DNA of 34,102 nt from Candidatus Omnitrophota bacterium (GTDB lineage Bacteria; Omnitrophota; Omnitrophia; Omnitrophales; JACQLI01): positions 1 through 34,102 of the forward strand of contig JACPCP010000008.1 of NCBI GenBank assembly GCA_016179745.1, given 5' to 3'. The position numbers and the translations under genes were made by a program. Below the pieces are notes generated by a model, which was given only the letters and a program-made list of their open reading frames with translations, had not been told where the DNA came from and did no database searches. Numbering within the stretch: position 1 is the first letter of the stretch; every line of letters begins with the position of its first letter. This document shows positions 1-30,151 of this stretch, piece after piece.

Positions 1-3000
1 CTCAGCAATAACAACGATCCGTTGATTCTTCGAAACGCTTAAAAGTCTGATTTCATTGGGACTGACTTCGACTCCTCCTCCCTCCCCCCGCACCTCGGCG
101 CGGCGGTCCGAGATCGGGCCCGTCCGTTCCAGAATCCCGGCGTTGCGCAACTGACCGTCCCTTGTCTCAGAGGCTTCCCATTCCCCCTGCCAAAATTTCC
201 GCTTCTCGAATAATTCCTCTGCACGGGTAGGAAAGAGGGCCAGGAGAAGCAGATCCCTGTCTCCCCTTCCTTTGTAGCTGGCCCTCAACTCTTTCACGGT
301 GAGGGGAATATTCAGCTTTAATTCCTTTGCTACTTTTAAGATCGCCTCCCTCGGAAGCTGGTCGCTCTTAACTTTCGGATATTTTGTTCTAAGAGATCTT
401 GTTAAGAGAATCACGTCGCTATCAACAAACTCCTTCCCGGCCTTCCCTTTCACGTCTTTAAATGCTGCGAGGGCCTTTCTTATCTCTTTAGTGTTCACCT
501 TGCCGCCTAAAAGGGCTCTCTGGACCCGTTCGAGATCTATCGGCGCGCCCGGATAACTGAGGAGTCCGAAAGCCTTCGCCACAAGTTTCCGGTTGACACC
601 GGGGTAAAGATCCTGGAGATAGGGATCCTGGGCCCAAAGAATAAAGTAATTCTGGAAATCCACAATCACCGGCGCCTGGGGATGAGCGTATTGCGCCATG
701 CGGTCTTCTTCCGGATAAGAAGCCGACTTTTTGAGGACGACGTTCGATTTATCCTTTGAGATTTCCGCTACGAGATAGCCCTTCATGAGCCAGCCCAGAA
801 CATTGTGGAAGGCCTGCACCCCCGTCCATTGACTGGTGGGGGTCACCATGGAAATCTCCCCGGCGTCCGCTTCGACACGGATCATCTCCTGAAGCACTTG
901 AACGATAAAAGCGTGCTTTAATCGTTCTCCGAGAGGCGTCAACGTTGTGAATTTACCCTTTGAATCCTTATGATCCTCAAAAGCCCGGATTCCAAATTTC
1001 GCGCGGAATAAGTTCGTTTCGAGTCCTTGCAAACCCTCTTTGATATCAACGTCAATGAAACTCGACTTCATCCCTCCCGGCAGGCCCGCCTCCACATAGG
1101 CCTGGCGGTCCCAAGTCGTCGTCGGGCTGGTGGGAATCCTATTTTTGTACTCCGGCATCAGGGAATCGGCAATCCAGCGCTCAAGAGCCCTCAACCGTTC
1201 TAAGGTGTCATCGGCATGAGGAACCTGCCATGGGGTGCCGTCCGTCAACCGGATAAAATCGACCACGTCCGGCTGGCCGAAAGGTGAGGACAAAGCCCCT
1301 TTGCCGACCCCAAGATCCATAATAATGGGATAGTCAGGACCATTGGCCCGGATGGCTTCCAGCAGCGTGAGCTGGCGGTCCCCGTAACTGTCGTGCGTGT
1401 GGGTTAAGAGGGGGGCCTTGATGTCGGAATCCCTCAAGGCCTTCACGAGGCGGAAGGCCTCTACCGGCCGCATCCGTCCCGGGGCGTCTTTAATGACCAA
1501 CGCATCGAGAGCTTCTCCGCTCTCCCGAATCAATTCCTTTGCGAGCTCGACATAGCCCGCCACCCCTTTGGGGAATTTTGGAGTGAAGTGAATCACGGGC
1601 TGCGCTTTCGCCCCTGTCTCCCTTGCGTATCGAATGGCTTTAATAATTTTTCGGTTGTCGTTGAAGGCGTCGAAGATCCGCAAGATATCCACGCCGCCTT
1701 GACCAGCCATTTTAATAAAAAGCTCCAACACGGAGTCCGGCATCGGCTTGAGCGCCACAACATATTGTCCTCTGAGGAGCATTTCTTGCCGGATGAGGTA
1801 ACGCCTGATAATTTCATCTCCCAGCTTTGTCCCGGCAGCGATCAACGGATATTTGTCTTTGTTGAGAATTTTTCTCAGTTCCTCTTCGGATAAAATTTTA
1901 CGATCCTGTCTGAACCGGTATCGGCTGAAGAGTTTTTGCTGGTCTCTCGTCGAGATACCGTAGACATTTTCCCCGTTAGGAAGAACCAGCTCCCGGAGTT
2001 TACGCTCCAATAAAGCGGTCTGCTGCTGCAAGTTGTACCAAGGATCTTCCAATTCTTTATGGTGGAGCGACTCCAAGAGATAGGCCATGTTCGTATTCCC
2101 CCCATAGGTCTCGATGTCATGGAGCCTGATTCCTAACCCGATATGACCCTCCATCAGCCGTCGTCGGTCCTGGCCGGTTAAAGCCGTGGTATTATCCGAC
2201 TGATCGCCGTCCCGAGGGGTAGTGAGGGCGATCCGAACATCCCTTTTTTCCGCCATGCCCCCTTTGAGAAGCGCGTTGTAAAACTGCAATTGTAATTCTG
2301 CCCGAACCTGATAGGCCAAGGTCTCGGGAAGTTTGAGATCGCCCACGAGCCGGTTCACGCCTTCATCAAACCGGGAGAAAAGTTCCTCGCTCGTTATCTC
2401 AGGGCTGAGGGTCCCCGAGGACTCTCTTAGCCGCTCTACCTCCTGAATGAACTCCTCCCCTCGGTAGGTCATGAGATAGCCCGCAGCGAGACGCACCTCG
2501 CCATAGGGATAGGAGGTGAACTCGGGATCGGGACGGTTGAGGGAAATGACCTCTTTGAATTCATCGATCAGCGGTTCGCCGTAAAATTCCAGGAAGCGGC
2601 GCCGATTCTGCGGAATATCCAGGGCGCTCTTGAAAGCCTCGAGGAGTTTTTTCCGCTTCTCTCCCTCCGGCTGCGCAATCACTTTTGCAAGGAAATGCCC
2701 CAGACTTTTCCTTTTTAACTTCTCGACCATCCCCTCTTGATAGTCTCCGGCTGCATTAATCTCCAATCTCAGGGGAGTTGGACCATTCTTCTGAAAAGCG
2801 TTCCTCAAAACAGTGCCTAAGGTAAAAAGCTCGTGGTTGACCGCGATGACGGCTGTACGGAAAAGACCATCCACCGCGATTCTCTCCTGCACATAGGAGT
2901 AGGTCGAGCCCTCCTTAGCTAAAATCAAATCTTGGGCCTGCTTGAGTAACAATAAGGCTTCTTCATATCTCTCGGGTCGTTTTCTATTTTTCAAGATTTT

Positions 3001-6000
3001 CTCGTCCATCAAAGCTTTCGCTTCTTTTATAAGCGGCTCTATGGGCTGCGGGGTCGGCTCGGGCTCGGGGGGCACGGTCTTAGTTCCCTTTTCTACGAAA
3101 CTGAAATTCAGGGGCACCCCATGGACCGAATAAGGAGCGGCCGGTCCCTGGCTGCCCGCTTCGAGGTGCTTAAGACCAAGGTAGCGGTAGTAGAGGAAGT
3201 ACAAAACTGCTTCGAGTCCTTTACCTTTGAAGGCTTCATTAACCATCACCGTTTCGAAGTCAACCGTACGCCCGATTCCTCCTTTGACGAGTTTGGCGTA
3301 GCCAACTACGTTTTCCTCGTCATCATATATTTTAAATTCAGTTCTAGTGCCCTGAGCGCTTTCCCTTGTCACCAGCGTAAAACGCCGGTCTTGGAATATG
3401 AAATCCTGCTGAGAAGGCCAAGCTGTTTCACTCCGCGCCTCGGAACGGCGATTCACAGCCCATTCGCCTGCGCTACGCACTTCGGCGCGGGAGGCGCTTC
3501 GCGCTTCGCTCCGCTCAATGGCTGCGACAATATCGGGGTGAAGACCGGTAAAGTTCTTAAGCCAGGCAAGTCGATTCGCCCGAAGAGCAAGGGTCATTTG
3601 CTGATATTCATCTGAAGAGTAGTAGTGACGAGGGTTAAATCGGCTGCTATTAAAACCCGGGGCTCGAGCTACAACCCGGTACCCCCAGTCCGGATCAGGG
3701 TTTGCCCACTTGATGTTTCCCTTGTAGAGCGCACGAAACAGTGCCGCGGAATCCAGGACATCGATTTTGACACCCTCCGACCCGGGCTTCGCGCCCACCC
3801 GTCCGGTATTGGCCAAGACAACCTGGATGCCCGGATTTGCCCGAAGGAATTCATAAAGACGATTGGCCTCTTCCGCAACGGAGCCGGCAATGAAAGAGCT
3901 AAACCCGGGTTCGTTCGCTGACTCTCCTGCCTTTGTGGGGTCCGCCGCTGAAGTGAGCTCTGATTCCCCCAGCACCCAGAAAGCAGCCGCTTGCGCGGGG
4001 GTGAGAAGCGACAATGCCGGAACAATCGTCCGCCGCCTTGTGAGCCAAATCATGAGATCAATTCCATTCATATCGACCGAAGGGTCTTGGGTAATCCGTT
4101 CGCGCGTCACAACACCCCGGCCGTTGGCGGTAATTCTGACATTGCCGTAATCAGGAACAAGACCGCCTTGGGGATTCTCGTTCATCCAGACATTCGAGAG
4201 AATTGTATCCGGGTGCTTTGCCGCATTGAATAGCTCCGGCTCTTTCTTGGGATCAAGACCGGCGGTTTTGTAATAGGTTCCCCGCTCCAAACCTTTGACC
4301 TTGACCTTATGCTTCTTAAAGCGAAGCTCCACGAAATCATCCTGTTTCATTTTGGAACGGCGCCCCAAACCTTGGGTTCCTACCAGCGTTGTTGTCTTGC
4401 CCGTTCCTGAAAGCCCCGATGCTATGATCCGGATTGTCTTCCTCCTACCTGTTTTTACATCCCGATCTCGGACCACCTTGCTTCCCGCGTGAAGGGCAAG
4501 GTCTCCCTTTAGCTTCGCGAGATACCCATTCATTGTTAGAACCGACTTCTTGACCTCCCCGAAATAATCGGTCCCGAGAACGAGGGTGATGCCCCGGCTC
4601 GGGATCCGAAGGATGTAGGGTTGCTTTTGCTTTGCAAGCCCATAGCGGCTCAGGTCAAAATCCGGTAGATCGATCGTGAGGATATCTGGGGTTTCCGCTG
4701 AAGCGGATGGACGGGCTGGGAAGTGAAGCGACGTAAGCTCGTGCGCCAGCCGGCCGTAGTCTTTTGAAACAAGGAACCTGAAATGGCGGGATTCATCGGG
4801 ATTCTGACCGACGCTTCGATCGACTTGGATCAGTTCTTTGCCTTCAAGAAAGTCCTCGACCGCTGCCAAAACCTTTTGGGCAAACTTGTAGTTGGCCTTC
4901 TGTTGGCCGAAATCGGCTTTGAAGCCATCCATCTCAAGATGTTCTGTTCTCTTGGCGCTTCGATTGGTTTTGTTGCTGTAATAGAGGGTGCTTCCGTAGG
5001 CCGTCTTGAATCCGTGCGCCAAGGCTTGTCGGAACTGTCCCACTTTGGCCTGCCGGAGATTCGGCCTCTTCCCTGTTTTCTTTTTTTCCAGTCCCTCCAT
5101 CTTTTTTAAGGTCGTATCGGAAAGAATTTCTTCTTCAAATTGACCCGCCCGCTTTTTTTCACCTTTAACTGCCAACCAAAACAAGGCTTTGACCCGGAAC
5201 TCTTTCACTCTTTTCACACCCTGCAGCTTAAGAATGGCCTCTTTCCCCTCTGAACTTTTAGTCAAGGGCGCAGACAATCGCGCCTCGGAGCGTAGTGGGT
5301 CTTTACGGAGCTCGGCGATTCGGGCCAACCGACCAATCTCTAAATTCAAATCGGTCAAGCGCGCCCGGAGAATATTTCTTTGGATCTGCAACTTCTGCAC
5401 TTTGGAAAGTTCATCACCCGACGGAACGCCGGGTTCATTTTGAAGACGAACTATTTCGTCATGCATTTCCCCCAAGAGAGCTGACAAGAGGGGCTGGAGC
5501 CGTGCTAATGAGAATTCGCTGACGGTATTCACAAGTCCATCGAAGGCAAAAGGAAGTAAGATTCGACGCACCCGCCCTTGTTTCCCCAGATTCAAATCTT
5601 TGAGCAAATCTCGAAAGGTCTTTAGATCTGGGGGAAATGCCTTGATCAGGGCGGGACCGATGCCAAGCGCTTGGAAATTAGTGATTTCCCCGGGATATTT
5701 CTCTGCGACGAGCCTGGCGGTATGTTGGATCTCGGCTTCAGTGAGAACCTCGCCAAGTTCATTCTGATTGATCGCCTTGGCCAAATCCGCAACGGTTCCC
5801 GGCCGGTTCTTGATTTTATCTAACACTTCCTCCCGAACCCCAAGCGAGTCCAATTCATTCGCCCGCACCTCGGCCCTGCTTCGCTGAAGCTTCGCAGGGG
5901 CTTTGGCCAAGTTCTGCGAATCCTCCGGCGAAGCAGACTCGGCGCGAAAGAGAAGGCGATTAAGCTGTGAAAGCGCAGATTGAATGGCGGCGTAGATTTC

Positions 6001-8106
6001 TGTTTTCTTCCGGTTCCAAAAAAGGACCCAACTCACAGGACTGTGGGCCTTCCAAAGCGTGACTACCGTAACTCCCACGGCGCCTATCCCGATCAACGCC
6101 GTCCCTATCGCTACAAAAACCTCCGCCTCCATCCTCACCTCAGGCCTGGCGCCCCAAACACTAAATTTTCCCGCTTGAGGATTCGAGGGCTTTGAAAAGG
6201 CGACATGAAATTCGCCTTCCGTGAAAATGGGAACGACGCCGGAAAAAATGTCCTCTCGCCGGGCGAAGCTCTTTTCCAAAGCCGAGAGGATCCTTGCATC
6301 GGACCAGCCTTCGGCCTTCAAAACCTTGACTCCGATCGGCACCGCACTCAAAAGCAGGTCCCGCTGTTCCAGTCTCGAAACCGCAACCGGTCCGGCGTAG
6401 GATTCCGGGCTCTGCGCCAGGAGCACTTTCACGAGGGCGTTCTTTGTTGAAAGGAAACGGTCCAGCCGGGAGTTCTCACCCATCATCGCCCGCTCGTAAG
6501 CGCTGTCGTCTTCCAGGCCGGTGATCCGGGGGGTGATCACCACATAAGGAATCTTTTTGGCCCTCAAGGCCTCCAGCATCCCTTCGGTGTGAAACCCTCC
6601 GCTCACGAGAACAGTCGAACGGTGTTTTGACGAACTTTGCTTTAAAGCGTTTTCAAGCAGGATTTCGTCCCGCTGGCGGGAAAGCCGGTAAAAACGTTCG
6701 GCGGTCTCTTGGACCGATTCCGGCAGGGCGGGCGGCAAAAAATCAATTTTTGAAATGCGCTCGAACCTTTTCTTTAAAACCGGGGCGGCCAGCGAAGGCC
6801 CTTTTTCGAGATAACGGTCGAAGTCGCTCCGGCTCATTCGGAGGGTGAGAAGTTTTTCGAGGAGCGAAATGTCCCGGCCGAGGCGGATCAGTTCCCGTTC
6901 ACGGGAATTTTTTGCGAGCCCGAGCTCCAGCTTCTCTTCGAGGGACTCCATTTCCCGGAAGAGGGCCGAGGAATCGATTTCCTCCCGGAGGATCACGAGA
7001 CCGCCGTAAGTTAAAAGGTTCGGGTAATTGAGCAGAGAAAAATCATGGGCCTTCGCCTCTCGATGCAGAGATTCAAAAAAGTGCCGGGCAGGCCGGCCCA
7101 GGGTGAGCGTGGCGGGGTCCAGAAGCTTTACGAGCCCCTGAATCAGGGATTCCCGGGCGGGACCCCGGGGCAGGCGCCGGCGGAGTTCAGAGACAAGGGA
7201 CTGGACCTCCCGGCGGACCGATTCGGGTTTTACCCGGGCTTCATTCCCGGCAATCTTTACCAGGTGAAGCAGTTGGGGCCATTCAAATTGGTTCCGGGGG
7301 TCTGCAAGGTCAAGCTTCAAAGCCTGTTTGGAAAGCGCACCGAGCAGGGTGAGGTATTCAAAAAGATCCTGCTTTTCAGATTCCCAAGCCCGGCGCTTCA
7401 TGGAGAAGTCCCGGAGCCCGGGGTTGAGAAAATCGGCTTCCAATTCTTCAAGACGACGGGTGCAAAAATTAAAGAAGGCCCGGACTTCGGTTTTTTTCTT
7501 TTTGACCTCTTGAAAGGCCTTGAAACTTTTTCCGTAAAGCCGGGGGTGGTCGGCCCCCATCACCTGAACGGCGGGCCGGTGCTGCTCGAAGGCAAAAAGT
7601 TCCGAGCCGGTCAGTTCCCCCTCGGAGGCCAGAAAATCAACCATCGCCTGATTGGCCTTTGCAACGGGAAAGAGATTTAAAATTTTGGGATCGATTTCGG
7701 CGAAGGCGCCCTCGACCGAAATTCGGCCGATCTTCCTTTCGTGCGCCAAATGCTCAAGGATCGAGGCGACATGGCGCTGGGCCTCGGGGTGGGAGTGAAT
7801 ATCCTGAATGTGAATGACGAAGGGGGTCTCCGGATCAACGATGTCGGGGACAAATTTTTCCTGGATGGAGCCCAGAGATTGCGGGATGTTGATCAGGGGA
7901 AGCGCCGGACGAGATTCAGAGGTGGCAACGGGAGGCGCGGACCAGGCCACGGTCTCCCAGGCAAAGAGAATGGCGACGAGCAGGGAAGTGAATCGAATCC
8001 CAGTCACAGTCTTTCTGAAGGAACAAACTGTGCGCTTAAAGGACTTTGTAAAAACTCGTAGTGAGGCGGTAAAAAAAATGCGCTTGCGAGACGTATCTTG
8101 TTTCAC
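1..8106 (-). CDS. Giant secreted multidomain protein, N-terminal 2,702 residues (3' end outside window)
   Basis: I translated this minus-strand frame by hand from an in-frame TGA at 8187-8185 to base 1 and found no stop, so the protein has at least 2,702 residues. No ATG lies near the 5' end; GTG at 8106 is my choice, with GTG 8007 and TTG 8160 as alternatives. Order (numbered from GTG 8106): signal-peptide-like segment ending near residue 57 (hydrophobic core then A-W-S-A-P); TraB/ChaN-like domain about 90-520; one hydrophobic segment about 663-685; helical, charged regions; ATP-type PEP carboxykinase-like domain about 1150-1525; GNAT-like stretch about 1560-1655; a Pro/Glu-rich spacer near 1670; helical region; pyruvate carboxylase carboxyltransferase-like domain about 1955-2450. 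R-[ASP]-E-[VA]-R motifs sit between these modules. Such giant exported proteins are, from memory, typical of Omnitrophota. The overall function is unknown; the exact start is uncertain. Confidence 0.9.
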   Translation of the reverse strand, partial: MKQDTSRKRIFFTASLRVFTKSFKRTVCSFRKTVTGIRFTSLLVAILFAWETVAWSAPPVATSESRPALPLINIPQSLGSIQEKFVPDIVDPETPFVIHIQDIHSHPEAQRHVASILEHLAHERKIGRISVEGAFAEIDPKILNLFPVAKANQAMVDFLASEGELTGSELFAFEQHRPAVQVMGADHPRLYGKSFKAFQEVKKKKTEVRAFFNFCTRRLEELEADFLNPGLRDFSMKRRAWESEKQDLFEYLTLLGALSKQALKLDLADPRNQFEWPQLLHLVKIAGNEARVKPESVRREVQSLVSELRRRLPRGPARESLIQGLVKLLDPATLTLGRPARHFFESLHREAKAHDFSLLNYPNLLTYGGLVILREEIDSSALFREMESLEEKLELGLAKNSRERELIRLGRDISLLEKLLTLRMSRSDFDRYLEKGPSLAAPVLKKRFERISKIDFLPPALPESVQETAERFYRLSRQRDEILLENALKQSSSKHRSTVLVSGGFHTEGMLEALRAKKIPYVVITPRITGLEDDSAYERAMMGENSRLDRFLSTKNALVKVLLAQSPESYAGPVAVSRLEQRDLLLSAVPIGVKVLKAEGWSDARILSALEKSFARREDIFSGVVPIFTEGEFHVAFSKPSNPQAGKFSVWGARPEVRMEAEVFVAIGTALIGIGAVGVTVVTLWKAHSPVSWVLFWNRKKTEIYAAIQSALSQLNRLLFRAESASPEDSQNLAKAPAKLQRSRAEVRANELDSLGVREEVLDKIKNRPGTVADLAKAINQNELGEVLTEAEIQHTARLVAEKYPGEITNFQALGIGPALIKAFPPDLKTFRDLLKDLNLGKQGRVRRILLPFAFDGLVNTVSEFSLARLQPLLSALLGEMHDEIVRLQNEPGVPSGDELSKVQKLQIQRNILRARLTDLNLEIGRLARIAELRKDPLRSEARLSAPLTKSSEGKEAILKLQGVKRVKEFRVKALFWLAVKGEKKRAGQFEEEILSDTTLKKMEGLEKKKTGKRPNLRQAKVGQFRQALAHGFKTAYGSTLYYSNKTNRSAKRTEHLEMDGFKADFGQQKANYKFAQKVLAAVEDFLEGKELIQVDRSVGQNPDESRHFRFLVSKDYGRLAHELTSLHFPARPSASAETPDILTIDLPDFDLSRYGLAKQKQPYILRIPSRGITLVLGTDYFGEVKKSVLTMNGYLAKLKGDLALHAGSKVVRDRDVKTGRRKTIRIIASGLSGTGKTTTLVGTQGLGRRSKMKQDDFVELRFKKHKVKVKGLERGTYYKTAGLDPKKEPELFNAAKHPDTILSNVWMNENPQGGLVPDYGNVRITANGRGVVTRERITQDPSVDMNGIDLMIWLTRRRTIVPALSLLTPAQAAAFWVLGESELTSAADPTKAGESANEPGFSSFIAGSVAEEANRLYEFLRANPGIQVVLANTGRVGAKPGSEGVKIDVLDSAALFRALYKGNIKWANPDPDWGYRVVARAPGFNSSRFNPRHYYSSDEYQQMTLALRANRLAWLKNFTGLHPDIVAAIERSEARSASRAEVRSAGEWAVNRRSEARSETAWPSQQDFIFQDRRFTLVTRESAQGTRTEFKIYDDEENVVGYAKLVKGGIGRTVDFETVMVNEAFKGKGLEAVLYFLYYRYLGLKHLEAGSQGPAAPYSVHGVPLNFSFVEKGTKTVPPEPEPTPQPIEPLIKEAKALMDEKILKNRKRPERYEEALLLLKQAQDLILAKEGSTYSYVQERIAVDGLFRTAVIAVNHELFTLGTVLRNAFQKNGPTPLRLEINAAGDYQEGMVEKLKRKSLGHFLAKVIAQPEGEKRKKLLEAFKSALDIPQNRRRFLEFYGEPLIDEFKEVISLNRPDPEFTSYPYGEVRLAAGYLMTYRGEEFIQEVERLRESSGTLSPEITSEELFSRFDEGVNRLVGDLKLPETLAYQVRAELQLQFYNALLKGGMAEKRDVRIALTTPRDGDQSDNTTALTGQDRRRLMEGHIGLGIRLHDIETYGGNTNMAYLLESLHHKELEDPWYNLQQQTALLERKLRELVLPNGENVYGISTRDQQKLFSRYRFRQDRKILSEEELRKILNKDKYPLIAAGTKLGDEIIRRYLIRQEMLLRGQYVVALKPMPDSVLELFIKMAGQGGVDILRIFDAFNDNRKIIKAIRYARETGAKAQPVIHFTPKFPKGVAGYVELAKELIRESGEALDALVIKDAPGRMRPVEAFRLVKALRDSDIKAPLLTHTHDSYGDRQLTLLEAIRANGPDYPIIMDLGVGKGALSSPFGQPDVVDFIRLTDGTPWQVPHADDTLERLRALERWIADSLMPEYKNRIPTSPTTTWDRQAYVEAGLPGGMKSSFIDVDIKEGLQGLETNLFRAKFGIRAFEDHKDSKGKFTTLTPLGERLKHAFIVQVLQEMIRVEADAGEISMVTPTSQWTGVQAFHNVLGWLMKGYLVAEISKDKSNVVLKKSASYPEEDRMAQYAHPQAPVIVDFQNYFILWAQDPYLQDLYPGVNRKLVAKAFGLLSYPGAPIDLERVQRALLGGKVNTKEIRKALAAFKDVKGKAGKEFVDSDVILLTRSLRTKYPKVKSDQLPREAILKVAKELKLNIPLTVKELRASYKGRGDRDLLLLALFPTRAEELFEKRKFWQGEWEASETRDGQLRNAGILERTGPISDRRAEVRGEGGGVEVSPNEIRLLSVSKNQRIVVIAE
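751..2244 (-). other. Pyruvate carboxylase / oxaloacetate decarboxylase carboxyltransferase-like domain within the giant protein
   Basis: Residues about 1955-2450 follow the DRE-TIM barrel carboxyltransferase of pyruvate carboxylase. TTPRDGDQS at 1962-1970 corresponds to TTFRDAHQS (substrate Arg, metal Asp, Gln). ETYGGNTNMAYLLESL and EDPWYNL correspond to the MWGGATFD...EDPW segment. LLRGQ carries Arg2112. DILRIFDAFND follows. VIKDAPG holds Lys2206, the residue that is carbamylated in the family. THTHDSYG gives the metal-binding His2236 and His2238. VTPTSQWTG (T2422/T2424) corresponds to the catalytic TPSSK threonine. All key residues are present, which argues for retained chemistry. No biotin carboxylase and no biotinyl-lysine (A-M-K-M) domain is visible before the window ends; they could lie beyond base 1 or be absent. 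Confidence 0.8.
3430..3516 (-). repeat. Cluster of three R-[SA]-E-[AV]-R motifs forming an interdomain linker
   Basis: Residues 1531-1559 contain RSEAR (bases 3513-3499), RAEVR (3489-3475) and RSEAR (3447-3433), spaced by Ser/Ala-rich and short mixed sequence. The cluster lies immediately after the PEPCK-like domain and before the GNAT-like stretch. Single copies occur elsewhere in the same ORF: RPEVR at 6147-6133, RAEVR at 5877-5863, RSEAR at 5292-5278 and RAEVR at 102-88. The Arg codons differ between copies, so the peptide rather than the DNA seems to be what is kept. Confidence 0.75.
3532..4659 (-). other. ATP-type phosphoenolpyruvate carboxykinase-like domain within the giant protein
   Basis: Residues about 1150-1525 match the catalytic half of ATP-dependent PEP carboxykinase in order. 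YFGEVKKSVLTMNGYL starts at 1181 and aligns with the Y-x-GEMKKG substrate lysine motif. LALHAG carries the metal-binding His. GLSGTGKTTT (1231-1240, bases 4416-4387) is the family's kinase-1a P-loop. QDDF follows as the likely kinase-2 aspartates. Further on come RRRTIVPALSLLTPAQAAAF, TSAADPTKAGES, VLANTGRVG and PDPDWGYRV, all recognisable from PEPCK C-terminal regions. The enzyme normally interconverts oxaloacetate and PEP with ATP/ADP in the cytosol, so its place behind a signal peptide is puzzling. The usual N-T-R-x-x-Y-P motif is degenerate (GNVRIT), so activity is not assured. Confidence 0.8.
6547..7839 (-). other. N-terminal TraB/ChaN-like domain of the giant protein
   Basis: Residues about 90-520 begin with a strand-like segment reading I-H-I-Q-D-I-H-S-H-P (98-107), continue with a helix and an ISVEGA strand, and end with VSGGFHTEG (GGFHTEG at 503-509). 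Paired His motifs at the two ends, with an Asp and a Glu near the first, resemble the TraB/ChaN/EreA-type fold, whose members bind metal or haem or act as hydrolases. The assignment rests on motif resemblance alone and is weak. The domain follows the signal peptide directly, so it would be the first part exposed after export. Confidence 0.4.
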
Positions 8107-8114
8107 CGTAATTT

Positions 8115-8129
8115 GAAAGGTGTCCTTTC
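8115..8129 (-). promoter_or_regulatory. Hairpin containing the only good Shine-Dalgarno candidate of the giant gene
   Basis: The minus strand reads GAAAGGACACCTTTC, a perfect 6-bp stem (GAAAGG/CCTTTC) with a 3-base loop. AAAGGA inside it is the best ribosome-binding sequence upstream of the ORF, but it lies 16 bases from GTG 8106, longer than usual. If the stem forms in the leader RNA it would hide the site. This also leaves the start codon in doubt. Confidence 0.4.
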
Positions 8130-8159
8130 TGAGATACTCAAGGCTACGACTTGAAGCCA

Positions 8160-8188
8160 AGTTAACCACAAAACCTTTCCAGCGTCAA
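8160..8188 (-). promoter_or_regulatory. Putative sigma70-type promoter of the giant gene
   Basis: On the minus strand TTGACG (8188-8183) is followed after exactly 17 bases by TTAACT (8165-8160). Transcription would start near 8153, leaving about 45 bases of leader before GTG 8106. Called from consensus only. Confidence 0.5.
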
Positions 8189-8372: not shown

Positions 8373-9443
8373 ATGGCGAGCCCATGGGTCCCTGCAAAGG
8401 TTCTCGAAGCAAGTGACCGCGAATACTTGGGGGCCGTCCTCCCCCTGTTGGACCAAGCGCAAAAGGAAATCGCCATTTCGCTTTACCTCATCCAACCCGA
8501 CGACCAGGCCAATCCCGATCACCCCGTGAACCGCCTCCTCGAAGCGCTTCTCCGGGCCCGCCAGCGGGATGTCCGGGTGCGGTTGTATCTCAACACAAAA
8601 TTCCGAGTGCTTCTCAAGGAGGAAGTCGGACTGGGAAAATATTTTGACCGCCTGCTTGAGAGCGGAACGGAAGTGACAGCGCTCCTGCCGGCCCGCCGCC
8701 TCCACGACAAACTCATCGTGATCGACGGCCGCTACGTGGTCGAAGGGAGCACCAACTGGAGCGTGAGCGCGCTCCAGACCAATTTTGAGTCGGCTTCCGT
8801 CATTGATTCTCCCCAACACGCGCGAAAAAAATTAGAACGGATGGGGCAGTTAATGCTTCCCCAGGTTCGCCGGAAACCTTCGCCAAAACCGCCTGAAGAA
8901 GACCTGCCTCTTCTTCCCGTGCCGGAAACCGTCCCAATGCCTGTGGCGCTTTTCCAAAGAGACCGCCTGCCGGCGTTGGTCCGGAAGTCGTCCCAGCGTT
9001 TCTTTGATCTTTATCTGATTCTTCTCGGACAAAGCGGGGCCCACGCAGGTCCCGCGCTGGAGCTGGATCTCGAAACACTCGGCCGGGCCCTTCGCCTCCC
9101 GGTCGAATGGGACCGCACAACGATCCGCCGGCAGGTCATCAAAGCCCTCCGGAAGCTTCAGGACCGATATCATCTTCTTCAAGTGACGTTTCCTTTTGGG
9201 GAGGACGCCAAAGTCACTTTGGAACATTGGGAGGGAGACAAGATCGAAGTGCCGGGCCGGCTGATAGAAGTTGATCTCCTGAAGGGTCAATCTGCAACCG
9301 ACACGTTCCTGGCTCTGGCAGAGATCGTTTTAAGGAAAGAAGGGGTCGATCTTCACTCGCTCTCAAGACCCCAGCTTGAAAAACGTTTCGGCGTCGGCCG
9401 CCGCACCCTCACCCGTCTCCCGGCTGCCCGCTCCGGAAAATAG
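8373..9443 (+). CDS. Phospholipase D-like protein with one HKD motif and a possible C-terminal DNA-binding region
   Basis: 356 residues on the opposite strand to its neighbours. The N-terminal part (about 15-150) has the PLD fold signature: QAQKEIAISLYLI, then H111-x-K113-x4-D118 (LHDKLIVID), then G-S-T-N at 125-128. One HKD per chain is typical of Nuc/BfiL-type nucleases and lipases that dimerise to build the active site. Residues 150-190 are a Pro/Lys-rich spacer. The C-terminal part (about 205-350) has short helix-turn-helix-like segments (LETLGRALRLP, LSRPQLEKRFGVGRRTLTRL), which suggest nucleic-acid binding, so a DNA or RNA nuclease seems likelier than a lipase. No signal peptide is seen. 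ATG 8373 is the only sensible start (in-frame stop at 8358) but its ribosome-binding site is weak. It converges on the toxin gene with only 6 bases between the stops. Confidence 0.85.
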   Translation: MASPWVPAKVLEASDREYLGAVLPLLDQAQKEIAISLYLIQPDDQANPDHPVNRLLEALLRARQRDVRVRLYLNTKFRVLLKEEVGLGKYFDRLLESGTEVTALLPARRLHDKLIVIDGRYVVEGSTNWSVSALQTNFESASVIDSPQHARKKLERMGQLMLPQVRRKPSPKPPEEDLPLLPVPETVPMPVALFQRDRLPALVRKSSQRFFDLYLILLGQSGAHAGPALELDLETLGRALRLPVEWDRTTIRRQVIKALRKLQDRYHLLQVTFPFGEDAKVTLEHWEGDKIEVPGRLIEVDLLKGQSATDTFLALAEIVLRKEGVDLHSLSRPQLEKRFGVGRRTLTRLPAARSGK

Positions 9444-29914: not shown

Positions 29915-29990
29915 TCTCCTATCAGAAAAATTCGGCTGCTTGGCCGTAAAGCTTGAATAGCGGCACCCCCTCCATTAGAATCCCTTCAAT

Positions 29991-30020
29991 GCGCCCGCCC
30001 CGTCTTTGACGGGGCTGCTA
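29991..30020. repeat. Hairpin repeat, copy 1
   Basis: A 30-base unit containing GCCCCGTC-TTT-GACGGGGC, a perfect 8-bp stem with a 3-base loop. It differs from copy 2 (30094-30123) at two positions that pair with each other, so the stem is preserved. It lies upstream of fadL. Confidence 0.75.
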
Positions 30021-30040
30021 AGTAGAGTCATCTGAGGTCG

Positions 30041-30073
30041 TCATCCTGAGGCTCCGGAGGAGCCGAAGGATCT
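30041..30073. repeat. Dispersed imperfect-palindrome element of the TCATCCTGAG...AGGATCTC type
   Basis: Outer arms ATCCT/AGGAT (30043-30047, 30067-30071) enclose an inner stem GGCTC/GAGCC (30050-30054, 30060-30064) with loop CGGAG. Elements with these ends recur in many bacterial genomes, from memory, as intergenic repeats. It lies between the two hairpin repeat copies. Confidence 0.55.
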
Positions 30074-30093
30074 CAAGTGATAATATTATTTCT

Positions 30094-30123
30094 GCGCCCG
30101 CCCCGCCTTTGGCGGGGCTGCTA
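30094..30123. repeat. Hairpin repeat, copy 2
   Basis: GCCCCGCC-TTT-GGCGGGGC inside the same 30-base unit as copy 1, with 28 of 30 bases identical. The T-A pair of copy 1 is C-G here. Only two copies are seen, 103 bases apart. Confidence 0.75.
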
Positions 30124-30151
30124 GGTTAGACGGGAGTGCACAATTAAGGTT

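Follow-up and report, generated by a model that had tools for sequence, protein, structure and literature searches.

What giant bacterial proteins do has stayed unresolved, largely because so few of their domains can be recognised. The locus analysed here, from a Candidatus Omnitrophota bacterium, raises this question with a single frame that runs uninterrupted off the end of a contig: of what parts does its product consist, and where might they act? Giant ORFs of Omnitrophota are already known (PMC10066038, PMC11573180, PMC12057145); those longer than 20 kb include one encoding a protein of 39,678 aa in Ca. Velamenicoccus archaeovorus, and the literature reports domains for adhesion and carbohydrate degradation in these giants (PMC10066038). 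The window, namely the whole stretch of 34,102 nucleotides that was analysed, belongs to a source genome of 1.5 Mb that is 79% complete, and contig C23 (122,507 bp) ends at base 1 of the window.

The minus-strand frame is open across window positions 8184-1 (2,728 codons) without stop or frameshift, and a TGA at 8187-8185 bounds it on the 5′ side. A first-pass annotation had claimed that no stop occurs between this TGA and the window edge, and that a stop or frameshift inside 1-8106 would refute it; neither was found when looked for in the sequence, and the claim held. The chance of 2,723 stop-free codons at this composition is about 7e-53 to 1e-52, and the codon-position GC of the ORF (0.60/0.40/0.61) is gene-like. 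The giant lacks its C-terminus because base 1 coincides with the end of C23. Among the three candidate GTG starts (Table 1), GTG 8007 gave the most typical signal peptide (VTGIRFTSLLVAILFAWETVAWSA). The signal sequence was called from the translation and hydropathy, not by SignalP, and equivalent leaders precede the N-terminal domain in other giants carrying it. A gene with a PLD-like domain adjoins the giant on the opposite strand (window 8373-9443).

From the N- to the C-terminus, the signal sequence is followed by a 480-residue N-terminal domain, a hydrophobic segment, a stretch without assigned domain and a PEPCK module, and then by a stretch with a GNAT-like signature, another stretch without assigned domain and a carboxyltransferase with part of a PYC_OADA domain. 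The first-pass annotation had described a signal-peptide-like N-terminus, several unrelated modules, a membrane segment and two recognisable enzyme domains that keep most of their catalytic residues. All four descriptions held, the first by translation and hydropathy, the third with exactly one strong hydrophobic segment and the last for PEPCK and the carboxyltransferase. Positively charged residues (WKAH...RKK) follow the hydrophobic segment, and the GNAT-like segment had no match in the Pfam scan.

Table 1 Features of the giant-protein frame, in window coordinates
Feature	Position	Strand	Basis or remark
Giant-protein open frame	1..8184	-	2,728 codons; GTG starts at 8169, 8106 and 8007; 3′ end past the contig
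Sec-type signal sequence	7930..8022	-	n-region K/R, h-region FTSLLVAILFAW, c-region AWSA
Family-defining N-terminal domain, aa 81-560	6490..7929	-	motifs HxxxEAQ, EG and GGFH; weakly ChaN/Tiki/EreA-like
Variant RPEVR	6133..6147	-	just ahead of the hydrophobic segment
Hydrophobic membrane-type segment, aa 684-702 (VFVAIGTALIGIGAVGVTV)	6064..6120	-	only strong one in this giant
Linker RAEVR	5863..5877	-	motif scan
Linker RSEAR	5278..5292	-	motif scan
ATP-type PEP carboxykinase domain, aa 1043-1552	3514..5043	-	GLSGTGKTT P-loop, DD and active-site Lys/His kept
Cluster RSEAR / RAEVR / RSEAR	3433..3513	-	directly behind the PEPCK domain
Possible GNAT-like segment (VNEAFKGKGLEAVLY)	3070..3402	-	by eye only
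Carboxyltransferase, pyruvate carboxylase / transcarboxylase 5S type, aa 2060-2470	760..1992	-	RDGDQS, VIKD Lys, HTH and TPTSQ
Linker RAEVR	88..102	-	C-terminal to the carboxyltransferase

The PEPCK module was matched by the PF01293 profile at aa 1051-1507 (E 2.7e-51; 175.2 bits against a cut-off of 26.5). When aligned to 1aq2 and 1j3b, GLSGTGKTT, KQDD, GEVKKS, ALHAG and NGR were conserved, so that the kinase-1a P-loop, the kinase-2 Asp pair, the active-site Lys and His and the substrate Arg are retained. The module shares its fold, P-loop and metal and substrate residues with known ATP-dependent PEP carboxykinases, but it sits inside a putatively exported giant and the Cys adjoining the active site is replaced by Ala. 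It is best called PEPCK-like and divergent, because the NCBIfam subfamily cut-off was not met (PRK09344.1-3, 348.7 bits against 369). Across 117 genomes, a stand-alone 565-aa PEPCK-like frame (G088:C1:717476-718885) was the only one with a profile score near that of the window module.

For the carboxyltransferase, a profile match of the PYC/transcarboxylase-5S type spans aa 2127-2464, and VIKD, HTH and TPTSQ were aligned to 1s3h and 1rqb with the carboxylated Lys, the HxH and the Thr kept; RDGDQS was read by eye. The carboxylated-Lys site, the two His, the Thr and RDGxQS are common to transcarboxylase 5S, PycB and OadA, from which the module differs in scoring far under the equivalog cut-offs and in the absence of a biotin carboxylase or carrier domain from the available part of the giant (Pfam scan of aa 1-2723, the C-terminus being missing). 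The catalytic residues of both modules are kept; that either is an active enzyme is inferred from sequence alone.

The N-terminal domain, designated A1, places this protein in a family. A protein search showed that it heads nine further long ORFs of the source genome, which gives ten members in all, and at least 14 motif-carrying giant ORFs or fragments of 864-14,650 aa were found in the targeted stretches of it that were read. The A1 profile matched the window giant at aa about 47-582 (E 1.1e-166); the window sequence is itself one row of this profile, and an independent BLAST-type search likewise detected the domain in the sisters. With its signal sequence and A1, its cysteine depletion and its R[AS]E[AV]R linkers, the window giant belongs to the A1 family. 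In a phylum-level sample, A1 was matched in 77 of 117 genomes, including all 46 of the same order, and a first look gave at least 50 candidates in some genomes, almost always within long frames. Comparison with giant ORFs of other genomes showed that the same N-terminal domain and architecture recur.

No Pfam family covers A1. Its His/Glu-type motifs are similar to those of the ChaN/Tiki/erythromycin-esterase superfamily, and EreC and ChaN were among the top fold matches, but no profile or fold match was significant (PF04187 in three of the ten members, best E 0.015; Foldseek best E 0.33-0.43). A relationship to this superfamily is possible and rests on weak sequence and fold evidence. A cysteine-free and motif-free frame of at least 3,332 aa (C12:10003-19998), of which 3,222 aa are without a Pfam match, lies directly upstream of the C12 giants.

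An assembly error joining separate genes had been named as a second possible refutation. A chimaera is improbable for the protein type because the architecture recurs on other contigs and in other genomes, but it remains possible, and cannot be excluded, for the pairing of PEPCK with the carboxyltransferase, which was absent from every other genome searched. Joining the ends of C8, C10, C13, C22, C23 and C25 was tried and rejected: the only overlap, 99 bp shared by the end of C8 and the start of C22, had the orientation of a shared repeat. This identity lies within giant-coding DNA, and therefore the assembly breaks at repeats inside giants.

A short motif, R[AS]E[AV]R, lies between modules; 113 copies of it were found in the giants of the source genome against a shuffled expectation of 0.005-0.22 per ORF, an enrichment of 50-500-fold. 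The window giant has six copies (0.015 expected), and the motif was absent from the ordinary ORFs of at least 800 residues that were examined. None of the 112 copies in ORFs with Pfam hits fell inside a Pfam domain, where 13.4 were expected, and the TIM of the C1 giant, at C1:6811-7593, is flanked by the motif 8 residues before and 5 after. The surrounding sequence is Pro/Ser-rich before the motif and Ser-rich after it. The copies occur on the coding strand in the reading frame of the giants, and off-strand and non-giant matches were at about the control level. The motif codons are more uniform than background codon usage predicts, which suggests spread by recombination. The motif marks module boundaries; cleavage at these sites is possible and no more than a hypothesis.

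The motif is not universal. A DNA pattern widened to Leu/Pro rose above its control for the majority of genomes in families f4, f6 and f8, and did not clearly do so in f2, f3, f5, f7 or other members of the class. The G025 giant has copies of the RAELR type, the motif is missing from the signal-bearing giants of several families, and the C8 giant contains many modules without it for more than 1,000 residues. Two other origins of the motif were rejected. An internal ribosome-binding site could be read from GAGGTG in the motif DNA, but RSEAR (GAGGCG) and RAELR (GAGCTG) do not fit and Met follows only 8 of the 113 copies; the placement of copies in frame and on the coding strand speaks against an inserted DNA repeat like the Rickettsia palindromic elements.

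Cysteine has been almost purged from the giants. Those of the source genome contain 28 Cys in 56,313 aa (0.05%), roughly half of which lie within or ahead of signal peptides, and the window giant has 2 in 2,728 residues; in ten neighbouring genes the proportion is 0.84%. There are catalytic exceptions to this loss. The only three Cys of the C8 giant (14,650 aa) all lie within two GAPDH active sites (SCTSN). In the giant GAPDHs of six genomes, SCT(S/T) and the His are retained, and the second Cys of the motif is A, S or G in every intact copy except one. Stand-alone TIMs (n = 30) have a mean of 4.0 Cys, with C126 in 30 of 30; giant TIMs (n = 12) have at most one Cys each, which is C126 in 8 of the 12, and they keep His95 and Glu165 in 12 of 12 and Lys12 in all nine sequences covering it. 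Such a loss with catalytic exceptions is the pattern expected of enzymes working where thiols are harmful, an interpretation that is drawn from sequence alone. Not all modules are working enzymes, since the C8 PGK lacks the Asp/Asn of the substrate motif, the C8 TIM lacks loop 6 and some giants contain a degenerate extra GAPDH. A giant at C12:20002-25494 carries a DUF4922 domain and has only two cysteines, which form CFLC; this is a further example of cysteines retained only at a likely functional site.

The sister giants carry much of glycolysis. The C8 giant, which is stop-free over 44 kb and truncated on its 5′ side, has modules of TIM, aldose epimerase, PGK, GAPDH domains, GPI, class II aldolase and PGM/PMM; the ORF after it has PALP and iPGM modules, and the C1 giant a TIM. 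The remaining sisters have HAD, starch synthase, protein kinase, SNF2 helicase, epimerase or histidine-kinase ATPase modules. No model of hexokinase, phosphofructokinase or pyruvate kinase matched in domain scans of the giants. Across the 117 genomes, PGK, GAPDH and TIM are mostly ordinary stand-alone genes, and for each of PGK and TIM approximately 16 genomes carry a divergent version embedded in a frame whose length ranges from about 900 to 14,650 aa; these genomes usually have a stand-alone copy too, and few have the embedded copy only. One apparent case, a PGK in a 24,209-aa frame of G006, was discarded as an artefact of a masked run of N.

Six genomes, each from a different family, have GAPDH and PGK together in a single long frame. 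The frame in G114 additionally contains enolase and aldolase, and that in G025 begins with A1 and also contains GPI and TIM. In G059 and G097 a TIM directly follows the signal peptide with no segment between, and its dN/dS is 0.30, evidence that is limited to one clean pair. Between two genomes of one genus, the giants share 92-98% identity along most of the two flanks and the PGK module is only about 25% identical (L084 of G054, 1680-5111; L085 of G058, 3481-7041), which is likely an in-frame swap of one module for a distant homologue.

Stand-alone PGK, TIM and PEPCK were not found in the 79% complete source genome, nor was a full-length stand-alone GAPDH, so that the copies within giants were the only ones detected. 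Loss of ordinary glycolysis in the source organism was rejected; sequence missing from the bin is likelier because of this incompleteness and because nearly all relatives retain stand-alone PGK, GAPDH and TIM. A genome of the same family (G001) is likewise without PGK, GAPDH and TIM.

The explanation we prefer, if by a narrow margin, is that these proteins are modular exported multi-enzyme giants that carry out reversible steps of central carbon metabolism beyond the cytoplasm; both their export and their activity are inferences. The window ORF would encode the N-terminal portion of a modular giant that is exported by Sec and belongs to a large paralogous family. Members of this family would begin with a signal sequence, then the ChaN/Tiki-like N-terminal domain, and continue with interchangeable enzyme modules on short linkers, which in the source lineage contain R[AS]E[AV]R. 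Many of the modules would be second copies of reversible central-carbon enzymes (PEPCK and carboxyltransferase in the window; TIM, GPI, aldolase, GAPDH, PGK, PGM, iPGM and enolase in sisters) that have shed nearly all cysteines save those needed for catalysis. Because the cysteines serving catalysis escaped this loss, a subset of modules is inferred to be probably active outside the cytoplasm. The site of action, also an inference, may be the periplasm, the surface or the contact with prey, and the substrates would be phosphorylated metabolites released there.

ATP, NAD+ and biotin are normally unavailable outside the cytoplasm. These missing cofactors are the main difficulty for the exported-enzyme reading, for which neither activity nor export data exist. 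It is also possible that hydrophobic segments within the giants return parts of them to the cytoplasm, which counts against export. A bolder form holds that in a lineage of bacteria the reversible part of glycolysis and gluconeogenesis runs outside the cytoplasm on Sec-exported giants made of a dedicated, cysteine-purged second enzyme set with cassette-exchanged modules, RxExR being perhaps a processing site and the likely place of action the prey or the predator-prey interface; we consider this form less likely than not.

Two rivals remain possible. In the first, the giants are surface adhesins, in which enzyme folds were recruited for binding and catalysis is irrelevant. In its favour, Omnitrophota giant ORFs were published as adhesins (PMC10066038), some modules are without key residues, and the modules resemble classical moonlighting enzymes; cytosolic GAPDH, enolase, TIM, PGK and aldolase are found moonlighting at the surface of many bacteria. 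Against it, the GAPDH nucleophile Cys, the TIM Lys/His/Glu with C126 and the carboxyltransferase residues are selectively kept in divergent, Cys-purged sequences, which is unexpected if only a binding surface were required. In the second, the giants are exported polyproteins that an Arg-specific protease cuts at R[AS]E[AV]R, freeing separate soluble enzymes. The enrichment of the motif, its position outside Pfam domains, around the C1 TIM and directly behind PEPCK, its frame and strand, and its Pro/Ser-rich and Ser-rich flanks support this reading. Against it, no protease was identified, signal-bearing giants of several families have no motif, and the C8 giant has its long motif-free run of modules. 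Cutting at RxExR is in either case an inference.

A cytoplasmic or inner-membrane-tethered metabolon, in which the signal sequence and aa 684-702 serve as anchors and the enzymes face the cytoplasm, remains a third rival but is unlikely. The positive residues after the hydrophobic segment, the cytoplasmic location of the cofactors and the lack of stand-alone PGK, TIM, PEPCK and full-length GAPDH in the incomplete source genome speak for it. Against it, the cysteine purge spans the full length, including the parts beyond hydrophobic segments, the TIM of G059 and G097 directly follows the signal peptide, and relatives have ordinary cytoplasmic copies. Decaying fusions or recombination debris, open by chance and functionless, would account for the high divergence, the loss of some residues and the sporadic presence, but are very unlikely given 14,650 codons without stop, conservation specific to catalytic residues, the dN/dS of the signal-bearing TIM and recurrence across families.

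The exported multi-enzyme reading can be set beside what is known. The attribution of such giants to Omnitrophota in the first-pass annotation is consistent with the giant-ORF literature (PMC10066038); a PGK tree gave the host no resolved position. The annotation had missed the paralogous family with one N-terminal domain, the module-boundary motif, the cysteine purging and the nearly complete reversible glycolysis set distributed among sister giants. Giants of the source genome share with published ones the long stop-free frames, the signal or hydrophobic segments, the few annotated domains and the large number per reduced genome. Compared with the giants of more than 20 kb, the C8 sister has 44 kb and the window ORF only 8.2 kb, because the contig end cuts it. 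The text of PMC10066038 does not mention triose enzymes, phosphoglycerate enzymes, signal peptides or cysteine, and no description of the shared N-terminal domain or RxExR linkers was found in it. Glycolytic enzymes that moonlight on surfaces form the same list outside the cell, but they are ordinary cytosolic copies without signal peptides; the giant modules are separate, signal-bearing, Cys-purged copies fused into giants. Nothing relevant on exported or extracytoplasmic glycolysis was found in the literature searched, and within that limit no account of an exported glycolytic enzyme set was met with, giant Omnitrophota ORFs as such being known.

The modules are among the best-understood enzymes in biology, and therefore the function of these giants is directly testable; assays of TIM, GAPDH and PEPCK are routine. 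If active, they would constitute a second, exported set of central-carbon enzymes, a type of external metabolism absent from the literature searched. As markers, A1 and the RxExR linker allow modules in such giants to be located and delimited. Elsewhere in the window, at 29990-30126 beside tRNA-Arg(cct), two 34-nt copies that are 91% alike lie 103 nt apart, and both contain an internal GC-rich inverted repeat.
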